A stretch of 64,000 bases of DNA, from positions 203,988 through 267,987 of the forward strand of contig PGYV01000004.1 of assembly GCA_002839855.1 (NCBI GenBank). Reading direction: 5' to 3'. The first letter of the stretch is position 1. Every line of letters begins with the position of its first letter. Positions 40,198-47,510 of the stretch are shown one piece after another. Origin of the DNA: Candidatus Goldiibacteriota bacterium HGW-Goldbacteria-1 (GTDB taxonomy: Bacteria; Oederibacteriota; PGYV01). Position numbers and translations under genes: made by a program. Under the pieces are notes generated by a model. That model ran no database searches. It worked only from the letters and a program-made list of their open reading frames with translations, and had not been told where the DNA came from.

Positions 40198-42579
40198 TTA
40201 CCTTATCTTTTCCACCTTTACAACCGCTATCAGCGGCAGATGATCCGAAGCTGCTTTTTCAAGCGCTGTGCGCGGCGTTTCTATCGTCTCTGCCTTTACG
40301 CCTTTGCCAAGAAATATATGGTCAACAAGCCCCAGCGGAAAAACACTTGGAAATGTCTTAAGATGGCCAAAACCCGGGGCGTGAAAATGTATGCTGCTAA
40401 GGCGCTTTTCAAAAGCACAGTATATCCGCGAATTTATCCGCGAATTAAAATCCCCGCATAATATAACCGGGGACAACGCGCCTATGGCGCCAAGCCATTC
40501 TTTACCAAGCAGATACTTTGCCTGCATCATGCCTTCAGGCGCAAACAGGCTTAAATGTGTGTTTAATACCTGTATTTTTCTGCCATGCGCGTTTATTTCC
40601 ACCCAAAGGACGCCGCGTTGTTCCAGAAAAGGCGTCCTTATAAGTGCCGGAAGCGAACCTCTCTTTATAAGTTTCATGTTAAACCTGCTTAAGACTGCAT
40701 TGCCGTGAAAACCGGCTTTAAGCATTACGCTTGAATGGTAATAAAAATTCATGGAAAGAAGGCCGGCTATTATTTTTGCCTGCTCAACATTGTCACGCGT
40801 ATCAATTTCCTGCAGCGCGATAATATCAGGATTGTGCATGGCTATAACTTTGGCAATTTGCTCCGGGTTTACCTTCCCGTCACGGCCCCTGCAGGAATGA
40901 ACGTTGTAGCTCATAATTTTTAATCTCAGTTCTCTTTTATTCGGAGCTTCAATTTTTGAAATCAGCGACGCCGTCCCGTTGCCGCGGTTAAGCGACCTAA
41001 ACACAGCAGCGCGTATTGCCTGGTTATCAATATCAGCAGTATCAGGCAGGCTTATATCCGGCGGAAAAATGGCAAACCCGGAAGTTTCATTGGCTCCCGG
41101 CCCTCCATGGCTTCCGCGTTCATTATAAAAAGTGACTGTTTTGCCGTCAGGTTTCATCCCGCATAAAATTATATCCCCGGCATCTTTATGTCCGCACAAA
41201 TCCGCCAGGTCTTTTGCGGTTCTTTTAAGAAACGGATGGCTTTTGCCAAGCACGGCTGCCGCGTTTTGCGGAAGCACGTGTTTCCCGGTTTCGTTCCAGA
41301 CATAAGCCCTGCCGCGCCCCGCCCGTATAAGCACCATGGGTATTTTCGCGTTCGCGGCAAGCGACTTTGCTATTTTCATTTTTTCTTTCATTTTTAATTT
41401 TGCCGGAGTATAAATATGCCCCACAGGCCCAAGCGCGGTTATGGCAGCGTATCTGGAAGTTTTAATATTTTCCTGCATTTCAACGCGCTGCATTTTTTTC
41501 ATTCTGCCTTTATCCATCTGATTCAGCGGGTATCCGCCGGGCGGCTCCGGCTGCGTATTAACACAGTCAATTGATGTTTCAGTTTTAATTACTTCATTAA
41601 CCGCTTCCTGCACAGGGCGCCCATGCAGTTCCCCGTAATAAGATGCTTCTTCCTGCCCGTGGTCAGAATAAACAATCACATCATAATCCCTTAACGGCGA
41701 GCGTTTGGCGGCTTTCCAGATTATCCTTATAACGCTGTCTACGGCGCGAAGCGACCAGTGCGCAAACCGTGATTTGGGCCCGCGGTGGTGGGCCTGTTCG
41801 TCATAACCGGCAAAGTTCATGTGTATCACCCTTATTCCCCGGGCTATATCTATCTTGGCGCCCACGCCTATAACTTCCCGCATAATCACGCAGGCAATTA
41901 CCCTTAATGGGATGTATTTTATTTCATGAAACAGGTTTTTTCCAAGCAGGGAACCCCGTATAGAATCTATAATTGCAAGCGTTAATTCCATGGCTGCCAG
42001 GACAGCGCCCCTGAGTATTATATGAAGGTGCATCAGCGTAAAAATACCTATTGCAACCGGGTTTGCCGCCGAGAAAAGAGTTTTCCACCCTATGGCAGAA
42101 ACACAAAAATGCGCCTCATCTGCGCCCCCGGTAAAAATATTTCCATAGGCGCTTCCGCCCTTAAGAAGGGGGATGCCTTTATTCCTGATTCGTTTTTCCA
42201 CCTTCACGGCGTGCGCGGGATTAAACATATTAAATAAAATCCCTGTTTTTTTATCCTTAAAATTGAACGCCGGAACGCATGTTTTCACGCCGTAAAAAAG
42301 TTCCCCCTGCACGGCAGGCGTGCTTGAAGGCTGCCCGCTGTAATGTTTATACTCTTTGCAGCCTTCCCTTTTTAAAAGCATTTTCAGGTGCGGCATTTCG
42401 TTGTGCTGCAAAGCCCTGGTGAATTCCGCATGGCTTAAACCGTCTATCTGTATTATCACCGCTCCCGGTTTTGCCGACTGTTCTTTTATCACGGACAGCC
42501 TGAGCAGTTTTACCATCCATGCGTCTATGCTTAAAAACCGCCTTATCTTTGCCCAGCGTGTATTAACCCTGAAAAACAT
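40198..42579 (-). CDS. alkaline-phosphatase-superfamily phosphodiesterase fused to an EEP domain
   Basis: 793 residues. Residues ~35-520 form an alkaline-phosphatase-superfamily domain with all expected metal ligands visible: VIIQIDGLSHAEF (Asp), YSGQPSSTPAVQGEL (nucleophile Thr), NFAGYDEQAHHRG (Asp/His), VYSDHGQEEASYY (Asp/His) and SHGGPGANETSG (His). Residues ~555-793 form an endonuclease/exonuclease/phosphatase domain: IMSYNVHSCRGRDG, IIALQEIDTRDN, NTHLSLFAP, LCGDFNSRI and ASDHLPLIAV. Both halves look active; together they may hydrolyse phosphodiesters of lipids, glycans or nucleotides. A hydrophobic stretch (~180-215) separates motifs in the first half and may be membrane-associated. The fusion is unusual to me. 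Confidence 0.85.
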   Translation of the reverse strand: MFFRVNTRWAKIRRFLSIDAWMVKLLRLSVIKEQSAKPGAVIIQIDGLSHAEFTRALQHNEMPHLKMLLKREGCKEYKHYSGQPSSTPAVQGELFYGVKTCVPAFNFKDKKTGILFNMFNPAHAVKVEKRIRNKGIPLLKGGSAYGNIFTGGADEAHFCVSAIGWKTLFSAANPVAIGIFTLMHLHIILRGAVLAAMELTLAIIDSIRGSLLGKNLFHEIKYIPLRVIACVIMREVIGVGAKIDIARGIRVIHMNFAGYDEQAHHRGPKSRFAHWSLRAVDSVIRIIWKAAKRSPLRDYDVIVYSDHGQEEASYYGELHGRPVQEAVNEVIKTETSIDCVNTQPEPPGGYPLNQMDKGRMKKMQRVEMQENIKTSRYAAITALGPVGHIYTPAKLKMKEKMKIAKSLAANAKIPMVLIRAGRGRAYVWNETGKHVLPQNAAAVLGKSHPFLKRTAKDLADLCGHKDAGDIILCGMKPDGKTVTFYNERGSHGGPGANETSGFAIFPPDISLPDTADIDNQAIRAAVFRSLNRGNGTASLISKIEAPNKRELRLKIMSYNVHSCRGRDGKVNPEQIAKVIAMHNPDIIALQEIDTRDNVEQAKIIAGLLSMNFYYHSSVMLKAGFHGNAVLSRFNMKLIKRGSLPALIRTPFLEQRGVLWVEINAHGRKIQVLNTHLSLFAPEGMMQAKYLLGKEWLGAIGALSPVILCGDFNSRINSRIYCAFEKRLSSIHFHAPGFGHLKTFPSVFPLGLVDHIFLGKGVKAETIETPRTALEKAASDHLPLIAVVKVEKIR

Positions 42580-42708: not shown

Positions 42709-42864
42709 TTACAGTTTCTTTCCGCCTTTCAAAAGCCATACAATAATTAGTATGACGGCAAGGACAAATAAAATATGTATTGCCCCGCCAAGCGTATAAG
42801 AAGTTACAAGCCCAAGCGCCCATAAAACAAGAAAGATAATACCTATAGTAAAAAGAGTGTTCAT
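42709..42864 (-). CDS. DUF5670-like (lmo0937-type) small membrane protein
   Basis: 51 residues: two hydrophobic helices joined by LGLVTSYTLGGAIHILFVLA, the hallmark of the lmo0937/DUF5670 family. The function is unknown; it is often found with stress genes, as here (CsbD next door). The start at 42864 gives the standard family length. A longer frame begins at 42954 but overlaps the barrel gene. Confidence 0.8.
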   Translation of the reverse strand: MNTLFTIGIIFLVLWALGLVTSYTLGGAIHILFVLAVILIIVWLLKGGKKL

Positions 42865-42895
42865 CGTTTTTTTATCCACCTTTTTTATCCCCCTG

Positions 42896-43360
42896 TTAAT
42901 ATAATATTCTGAATCCAAGCCTTGCTGATAAAGTCCAGTCAATGGCCGGGACAAGAATAATCATGGGTGATACTTCTAAAAATATTTCCAAAGGGTCTAT
43001 AGGAAATAACTGCAGCCCTACAGGCACCCTTCCGCCAAAATGAAAAGTATTTGGGGCGCCTCCCGTAATTGCAGCGTAGCCGCCTATGCCGATATAATAG
43101 GCAAGCCTTTCCGCAATAAAGTGATTTACAAGCCAGGCGTCAAGGCTGACGCCTATAAGCGAAGCTTTGGGCATAAAATTCCACTCTATTCCCAATACGG
43201 GAAACTGTCCGTACCTTAAAGTTAAGCCTGCTCCGCCTCCGGCGCCTGTACCGTTGCCGGCAAGGTTTCCGTAAAAGCCTATTCCGCTATTGTAAGCAGC
43301 ACCGGCAGGCACTGCTGACATTAAAAATAAAACAGCCAAAACTATCACTATTTTTTTCAT
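42896..43360 (-). CDS. small outer-membrane barrel protein, copy 2
   Basis: 154 residues with a signal peptide (MKKIVIVLAVLFLMSAVPAGA). Gly-rich strands follow (YNSGIGFYGNLAGNGTGAGG), and VPVGLQLFPIDPLEIFLEVS aligns with the gene at 37188-37688. It ends RLGFRILY. It starts inside the stop of the CsbD gene (ATGA overlap), so the two are translated together. Confidence 0.72.
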   Translation of the reverse strand: MKKIVIVLAVLFLMSAVPAGAAYNSGIGFYGNLAGNGTGAGGGAGLTLRYGQFPVLGIEWNFMPKASLIGVSLDAWLVNHFIAERLAYYIGIGGYAAITGGAPNTFHFGGRVPVGLQLFPIDPLEIFLEVSPMIILVPAIDWTLSARLGFRILY

Positions 43361-44419: not shown

Positions 44420-45232
44420 CTATTGTTTTACTATTGTTGCCTGATCCAAAGAAACCTGCCCTGCTGCCGCTCCCTGTACCATAGCCTGGCCGTCAAGCCT
44501 TGCACGTGTAAGTAATGATATGGAAGTGCTTGCAATAAGCGTGCCTTTCATCTTGCTGTCTGTCCCTAAAGTAATGGCTGAACCTGCCACCCAGAATATA
44601 TTCTTTGCCTGCGCTCCGCCGGCAAGTACAACTTCGCTTGTACTTTCAGTGGTGATGGATGTGGCGCTGCGGAATACAAATATTCCGTTAGAATCCCCCT
44701 GCGCGTCAAGGTACAGAAAACCGCCCGGTGATATTTCAATTGAAGATCCCGATTCATACAGTCCCGGAGCAAGCGTAAGCCCATTTAAGTTGCCTGATAT
44801 GGATGTGGGCGTTCCTCTTCCTGAATCTACCGCGTCATTATACGCGGCAAGCGCGTCTGTCTTGGCCGCAGTCAGCATATTTGCCACCGCAAGCGAATCA
44901 TCCGAAGCGTAAATCCCGCCGTTTACTTCCGGAGCTGTAAGTCCGGAAATATCCGACCTTACACCCGGGCTTAAACCCACATCTCCCGTAATTGAAGAAC
45001 TTGGAATATTGGTTATTGCCGAATTTGAAAGTATGGCATATACCGAAGCTGTTCCAAGTATCACTGCCGCCTGGCCTACCGCGCCTGTGGTTGTTGCGAT
45101 AGGCGTGGGTATTACTGTTGCTGTTGCCGCCGGTGATGACGGATTTGAACTGTTACATCCTGCCGAAAATACTGACAGTGCGATTGCAAGCGACAATCCC
45201 GCCGCCGTTAAAATTATTTTTTTCATTTTCAA
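44420..45232 (-). CDS. ice-binding-like (DUF3494) lipoprotein, copy 1
   Basis: 270 residues. A signal peptide with lipobox ends LSVFSAGC. A short Ser/Pro/Thr region leads to the DUF3494 beta-solenoid: TNIPSSSITGDVGLSPGVRS, SGNLNGLTLAPGLYESGSSI, FVFRSATSITTES and TLIASTSISLL. DUF3494 proteins bind ice in polar bacteria and fungi, but many members in non-cold habitats are probably adhesins or surface proteins. It follows 13 bases after the OmpA-like gene. Ice binding cannot be inferred from the sequence alone. Confidence 0.88.
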   Translation of the reverse strand: MKMKKIILTAAGLSLAIALSVFSAGCNSSNPSSPAATATVIPTPIATTTGAVGQAAVILGTASVYAILSNSAITNIPSSSITGDVGLSPGVRSDISGLTAPEVNGGIYASDDSLAVANMLTAAKTDALAAYNDAVDSGRGTPTSISGNLNGLTLAPGLYESGSSIEISPGGFLYLDAQGDSNGIFVFRSATSITTESTSEVVLAGGAQAKNIFWVAGSAITLGTDSKMKGTLIASTSISLLTRARLDGQAMVQGAAAGQVSLDQATIVKQ

Positions 45233-46391: not shown

Positions 46392-47510
46392 TTACGGAAG
46401 AACTATAATGTTCTGCGAAAGCGAAATCTGTCCGGCCGAGGCGCTTTGAATAATTGCCCTGCCATTCAGGTCTGCCATGTTCAAAAGCGAAATGGATGTT
46501 GAAGCAATCAGAGTGCCTTTCATTACAGAATTTGTACCAAGCGTGATTGCTGAACCTGCCACCCAGAATACATTCTGCGCCTGAGCGTTGCCTGTCAGGA
46601 CAACCTGACTGGTGCTTTCTGTTGTGATGGTGCTAGCGCTTCTAATAATGAAAACCGCGTTTGAATCGCCCATTCCGTCAAGATAAACAATTCCGCCCGC
46701 TGATATTTCTATGGACGAACCTGATTCATACAATCCCGGAGCAAGCGTAAGGCCGTTTATATTGCCTACAAGTGAAGTGGGTGTTCCTCGTGAAGCATTT
46801 ACGGCGTCAAGGTAAGCCGCACCCGCATCATCGTAAGCCTGTGTAAGCATTGCAGCTGTTCCTGCCGGCACTAAATCATCTGACGCGTATATTGCGTATC
46901 CCGAAGCAACCTGTCCGTCGCCGTCAAGCAGCCCTACGATGTTTGATCTTGCTCCGGGGCTTATGCCCACGTCTCCCGTTATCGAACTTGAAGGAATGTT
47001 AGTCAGATCCGAAAACGAAAGTACGGCAAAACGCGCCGATGTTCCAAGTACCGGTGTTACCTGCGCGACTCCGCCTATAACTGTAGCCAAAGCGGTGGGT
47101 ATTTCAGTCGTTGTACTTGTAATTGTTGCCGTTGCTGTAATTGTTTCAGTTGCTGTACTTGTTACTGTAATTGTTGATGTAACAGTAACCGTTGGTGAAA
47201 TTGTTACTGTCTGCGTTGCGGTCCGCGTTGCGGTTTGTGTCGCAGTATCCGTTAAAGTTCCTATTACAATTTCAGTGGCAGTCATAGTATATGTATTTGT
47301 ATTTACCACAATATCTGTTGCCGTATCGGTTGGCGTGGACGTATTGACTGTAACAACCTCTGTTGATGTTCCGGTATAGGTGTATGTTACAGACACAACC
47401 GGTGTGTTAACTGCGGGAGATGTAAGACCATCCCTTTTTGAACAGCCTGCCGCTATAGTGTACAGCATAGCCGCGACCAGCATAAATCTTAAAAAGTTTT
47501 TCATTTTCAT
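46392..47510 (-). CDS. ice-binding-like (DUF3494) lipoprotein with Thr-rich stalk, copy 2
   Basis: 372 residues. A lipobox (YTIAAGC, Cys ~23) is followed at once by a ~100-residue (Thr-X)n stalk (TATQTATRTATQTVTISPTV). The DUF3494 domain (~145-372) has TNIPSSSITGDVGISPGARS, GNINGLTLAPGLYESGSSIE and VFWVAGSAITLGTNSVMKG. The domain is very close to copy 1 (44420-45232), indicating recent duplication, but copy 1 nearly lacks the stalk. GGAGG stands upstream of the ATG. It is a likely surface protein lifted from the membrane by the stalk. Confidence 0.88.
   Translation of the reverse strand: MKMKNFLRFMLVAAMLYTIAAGCSKRDGLTSPAVNTPVVSVTYTYTGTSTEVVTVNTSTPTDTATDIVVNTNTYTMTATEIVIGTLTDTATQTATRTATQTVTISPTVTVTSTITVTSTATETITATATITSTTTEIPTALATVIGGVAQVTPVLGTSARFAVLSFSDLTNIPSSSITGDVGISPGARSNIVGLLDGDGQVASGYAIYASDDLVPAGTAAMLTQAYDDAGAAYLDAVNASRGTPTSLVGNINGLTLAPGLYESGSSIEISAGGIVYLDGMGDSNAVFIIRSASTITTESTSQVVLTGNAQAQNVFWVAGSAITLGTNSVMKGTLIASTSISLLNMADLNGRAIIQSASAGQISLSQNIIVLP

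Follow-up and report, generated by a model that had tools for sequence, protein, structure and literature searches.

The window, a 64,000-nucleotide stretch of contig PGYV01000004.1 from Candidatus Goldiibacteriota bacterium HGW-Goldbacteria-1, carries an uninterrupted gene (positions 40198..42579, minus strand) for a 793-residue predicted bifunctional phosphoesterase, in which an AlkP-superfamily domain is joined to an EEP domain. The same architecture recurs in many bacterial groups, where it is typically encoded in an operon with a GT4 glycosyltransferase and a ~750-residue glycosidase/phosphorylase-like protein, and where the GT4, AlkP and EEP parts form a single polypeptide at some loci. 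The operon and the triple fusion are new with respect to the preliminary description of this DNA, and both support a role with lipids or glycans. We give about an even chance to the reading that the protein is a membrane-associated bifunctional phosphoesterase, working on the cytosolic face, in a widespread undescribed pathway that makes or remodels a (phospho)glycolipid. Little is known about the membrane glycolipids of uncultured bacteria, and the conserved gene set together with the three-enzyme fusion offers a testable entry to a lipid pathway; the operon also supplies a context for a family of glycosidase-like proteins that lacks a significant Pfam model.

A two-domain fusion with conserved active sites

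The gene was delineated by its open frame, by matches to the Pfam models PF01663 and PF03372, and by an AF2 model. The frame comprises 793 codons with no internal stop, and the same uninterrupted fusion is found in three orthologues from the window's order, with full-length identities of 64, 58 and 43%. A frameshift or missed stop is thereby ruled out as its source, and the two domains that had been proposed to share one chain do so. The AF2 model, built from 63 relatives, has a pLDDT of 85.8 and a pTM of 0.88. The preliminary description had also ascribed full catalytic motif sets to both domains; seven residues of each set are present and are conserved across relatives.

The AlkP domain extends over approximately residues 39-546 (40942..42465, minus strand). 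It matches the Phosphodiest family PF01663 with E=2e-11 (44.5 bits against a curated cut-off of 23), best over residues 249-380, and 75-76 of 76 aligned rows retain D46, T87, D260, H264, D306, H307 and H491. We take T87 to be the nucleophile; the roles of the other AlkP and EEP residues likewise rest on motifs characteristic of the families. The profile and the metal/nucleophile residues together assign this part to PF01663 as a predicted phosphodiesterase. Placement was made by profile because the Foldseek matches listed (best 50) are all EEP structures and are silent on AlkP; the nearest solved chains are the Xanthomonas-type NPP (2gsn) and human NPP6, and the match spans mainly the second metal-motif region. 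The NPP family and the window protein share the AlkP-type motifs, the Thr nucleophile and a metal set of three Asp and three His, whereas the window protein has no signal peptide and carries a long hydrophobic helical insert and the fused EEP domain. The phosphate-binding Asn of NPPs has a tentative equivalent in N117, which is not conserved among relatives.

The insert (about residues 169-247; 41839..42075, minus strand), defined by hydropathy and model helices, separates the first metal-ligand motif of the AlkP domain from the second. The hydrophobic segments reported earlier within the first half of the chain are borne out as residues 171-205 and 223-245, and in the AF2 model the insert forms three helices (174-183, 185-211 and 216-247). 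In the structural alignment, hydropathy averaged over 19 residues reaches 1.6 or more in the insert of all 63 members, and no N-terminal hydrophobic segment was found in the 63 aligned members. Since the insert splits the active-site metal-ligand motifs, its two flanks must share one membrane face; the lack of a hydrophobic N-terminus or signal peptide is the one observation that suggests the cytosolic face for the protein.

The EEP domain (about residues 552-793; 40201..40926, minus strand) matches Exo_endo_phos PF03372 over the entire model (positions 1-225) at residues 556-780, with E=3.6e-20 and 73.1 bits against 24.5. EEP structures, Nocturnin among them, fill the best 50 Foldseek matches listed for the window model, with E-values down to 5.7e-16. 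Of the 66 EEP-bearing rows, 64-66 retain N559, E591, D710, N712, D779 and H780, and 63 retain H675. Profile, fold and catalytic set thus agree in assigning this sequence to the EEP superfamily. Identity as an ExoIII-type nuclease was dropped, as the window protein scores 41.4 bits against the cut-off of 99 for the ExoIII/AP endonuclease equivalog of NCBIfam. The PGAP2IP EEP model PF23226 has no match in the window protein (Pfam); some relatives score 28-34 bits with it and pass. In a published study, one EEP group, to which CWH43/PGAP2IP of GPI remodelling belongs, cuts phosphocholine or phosphoethanolamine off GlcNAc and clusters close to sphingomyelinases (PMC10704324). The present domain is alike to YbhP-like and GlcNAc-PDase/CWH43-like members of the superfamily in its full catalytic set, and its stand-alone relatives lie beside phospholipase-D-like genes: one from the window's phylum has a PLD-like gene next downstream, and another, on a Rhizobium plasmid, adjoins a phospholipase-D-like gene and a gene with an LPG-synthase domain. 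It is unlike them in lying C-terminal to AlkP and in GT4/glycosidase-like operons. Phage or plasmid cargo was rejected as an origin: no record covers 80% of the protein, and the matches listed involve the EEP part.

Distribution and gene neighbourhood of the relatives

Searching 84,980 species genomes for two short peptide patterns yielded 88 relatives, a lower bound, of which 80 were kept. The carriers, mostly metagenome bins and named here as in the database records, include Omnitrophota, Gammaproteobacteria, Desulfobacterota, Planctomycetota, Verrucomicrobiota, Lentisphaerota, Fibrobacterota, Elusimicrobiota, Sumerlaeota/BRC1 and FCPU426, among others. The EEP part is encoded at 68 of the 80 loci (tblastn), one of them with a separate gene; at L078 the separate EEP gene lies upstream of GT4. 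Five of the 12 loci without EEP reach a contig end within ~450 bases. The preliminary description had treated the fusion as unusual, naming a frameshift and a common architecture as what could undo that view; the frameshift did not hold up, and the architecture proved recurrent. Conservation was assessed on 76 rows for AlkP and 66 with EEP, and the structural alignment and tree comprise 63 proteins. At L030 and L069, with apparent N-terminal extensions, and at L062 and L073, with 430-470 extra residues ahead of GT4, the added sequence matches no other domain and seems to reflect frames that the ORF caller ran too far.

Frequencies of GT4 and of the ~750-residue protein refer to the 60 loci whose upstream sequence extends to 4.5 kb or more. 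A GT4 glycosyltransferase is present at 44 of these, its stop commonly overlapping the AlkP start by 4 bases, and the ~750-residue (alpha/alpha)6 protein at 41. A fusion of GT4 with the AlkP part is seen at 14 loci, in 13 cases together with EEP. The fused rows require four changes on the 63-protein tree, at least three of them forced by well-supported branches, and fall in Omnitrophota and, separately, in Planctomycetota; as judged from this tree, the GT4-AlkP fusion occurs in at least two lineages. The best NCBIfam matches of the operon GT4 are the MGlcDAG synthase NF049988 and the GlcNAc-PG synthase NF053787 (E down to 3e-45), with scores of 145-155 bits that lie far under the cut-off of 400; unlike these synthases, the operon GT4 is fused to AlkP-EEP in some lineages.

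The ~750-residue partner shares an operon with GT4 at L015 (2418-4655) and at over 40 other loci. At a threshold of 0.01, its sole Pfam match is a GtrA segment, which one extended member carries. By fold, the partner's model (pLDDT 83.3) matches bacterial glucoamylase and GH94/GH65-type phosphorylases, and E467, E629, D366 and D478 do not vary across 36 rows. With clan GH-L/GH94 enzymes (glucoamylase 1lf6, cellobiose phosphorylase) it shares the predicted beta-sandwich and (alpha/alpha)6 fold and invariant acidic residues; it differs from them in having no significant Pfam family, only 9-14% identity and no signal peptide. The partner may be a hydrolase or a phosphorylase. Among other neighbours, a VTT membrane protein occurs at 17 of 80 loci, and a CDP-alcohol phosphatidyltransferase gene starts directly downstream at three Omnitrophota loci. 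Neither GT4 nor the ~750-residue partner is present at twelve loci where each flank comprises 4.5 kb or more. A stress-island setting (Hsp20, CBS, USP, PRC-barrel) was rejected, as each is represented by few cases and the context is not conserved. The Omnitrophota loci L052, L058, L060 and L082 have genes for a TPP enzyme and an aldehyde dehydrogenase near the AlkP gene.

Candidate glycolipid pathway and competing explanations

In the typical operon, GT4 would add a sugar onto a lipid or lipid-like acceptor, the clan GH-L/GH94-like enzyme, which has no signal peptide, would trim or phosphorolyse the glycan, the VTT protein may serve in lipid transport, and the AlkP-EEP protein would cut or exchange phosphate-linked head groups. 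The AlkP part could open a phosphodiester, and the EEP part could act either on what this yields or on another phosphoester. The lipid substrate, the cytosolic side and the order of the steps are all inferred. The lipid- or glycan-type substrate suggested in the preliminary description is supported by the conserved active sites and by the gene context (GT4, the glycosidase/phosphorylase-like protein, VTT and, at some loci, the phosphatidyltransferase); the pathway reading draws further support from the VTT and CDP-alcohol phosphatidyltransferase neighbours, from the stand-alone EEP relatives beside phospholipase-D-like genes, from the sub-cut-off resemblance of GT4 to glycolipid synthases and from the existence of EEP enzymes that cut sugar-phosphocholine/ethanolamine (PMC10704324). 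Sequential action of the two sites, on a phosphodiester and then its product, is possible; against its strict form, some relatives with the GT4/glycosidase-like operon have EEP missing or as a separate gene. We counted against the pathway reading the loci without the operon, the lone copy in the window, the missing or separate EEP in some operons and the sub-cut-off GT4 matches. A multi-phylum (phospho)glycolipid pathway combining GT4, the new glycosidase/phosphorylase-like family, VTT and the double phosphoesterase, sometimes as one GT4-AlkP-EEP polypeptide, is proposed tentatively. No description of the AlkP-EEP architecture or of the operon was found in the open-licence literature, weak evidence of novelty given that only open-licence papers were covered.

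Several other functions were weighed. PIG-N, EptA and LtaS are AlkP-fold phospho-head-group transferases, and the AlkP part could similarly decorate a GT4-made glycan with a group that the EEP part removes or edits. The coupling to GT4 fits this explanation, as do the matches of several members to the PGAP2IP EEP model; we nevertheless consider it unlikely, since to our knowledge the transferases of this fold work outside the cytosol, whereas the AlkP-EEP family has no signal peptide, and the best EEP match is to the general PF03372 model. It would further accord with the phosphocholine/ethanolamine-stripping activity on GlcNAc reported for the EEP group that includes CWH43/PGAP2IP (PMC10704324). 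Soluble nucleotides are a distinctly improbable class of substrate: an NPP-like part would split NDP-sugars or pyrophosphate by-products of GT4 and EEP would be a Nocturnin-like nucleotide phosphatase, in line with NPPs as the nearest solved AlkP relatives, Nocturnin among the EEP structure matches and the fusion to a sugar-nucleotide-using GT4, but the conserved hydrophobic helical insert would be unneeded for such substrates, the neighbours are of lipid type and the NPP match is restricted mainly to the second metal-motif region. Weak similarity to ExoIII and TDP2 might suggest a DNA/RNA repair or processing enzyme with AlkP as an accessory; scores far under the ExoIII cut-offs, the glycan/lipid-type operon and the membrane-type insert make this very hard to sustain.

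For the window's own lineage, it also has to be considered that the gene came in by horizontal transfer and is an orphan whose role differs or is decaying. Within the phylum, matches occur in only 5 of 45 genomes, four full-length and one with EEP only. A profile search that matched two control genomes found no glycosidase-like partner in the window's genome, G041, G042 or G044, and the GT4s of the lineage are at best 31-35% identical to the operon GT4; with no partner and only distant GT4s, the window's genome has no GT4-AlkP-EEP operon. The window copy is an orphan in that its lineage has no glycosidase-like partner, its GT4s are distant, and the neighbours in the window are HEAT, PRC-barrel and DUF5670 proteins; the operon-based function is therefore less secure for this copy. 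A second copy in G042, broken or misassembled, would also fit a decaying role. The window frame is intact, however, with all catalytic residues kept, and the orthologues are conserved at 58-64%; we regard horizontal acquisition with a changed or decaying role as rather unlikely. Under the pathway reading, the lone gene of this lineage would draw its substrate from elsewhere or belong to a reduced version of the pathway.

The second AlkP-type copy of G042 (contig C56, 16745-18343, L007-L011) contains stops and frame changes, from decay or misassembly. In the window, the small DUF5670 protein (42709-42954, minus strand) is encoded immediately upstream of the AlkP-EEP gene. At 46392-47510 (minus strand) lies the gene for a protein with an ice-binding-like (PF11999) domain and a lipoprotein-like start, and the C-terminal half of the product of 44420-45232 (minus strand), which also has a lipoprotein-like start, closely resembles, by eye, that of the ice-binding-like protein.
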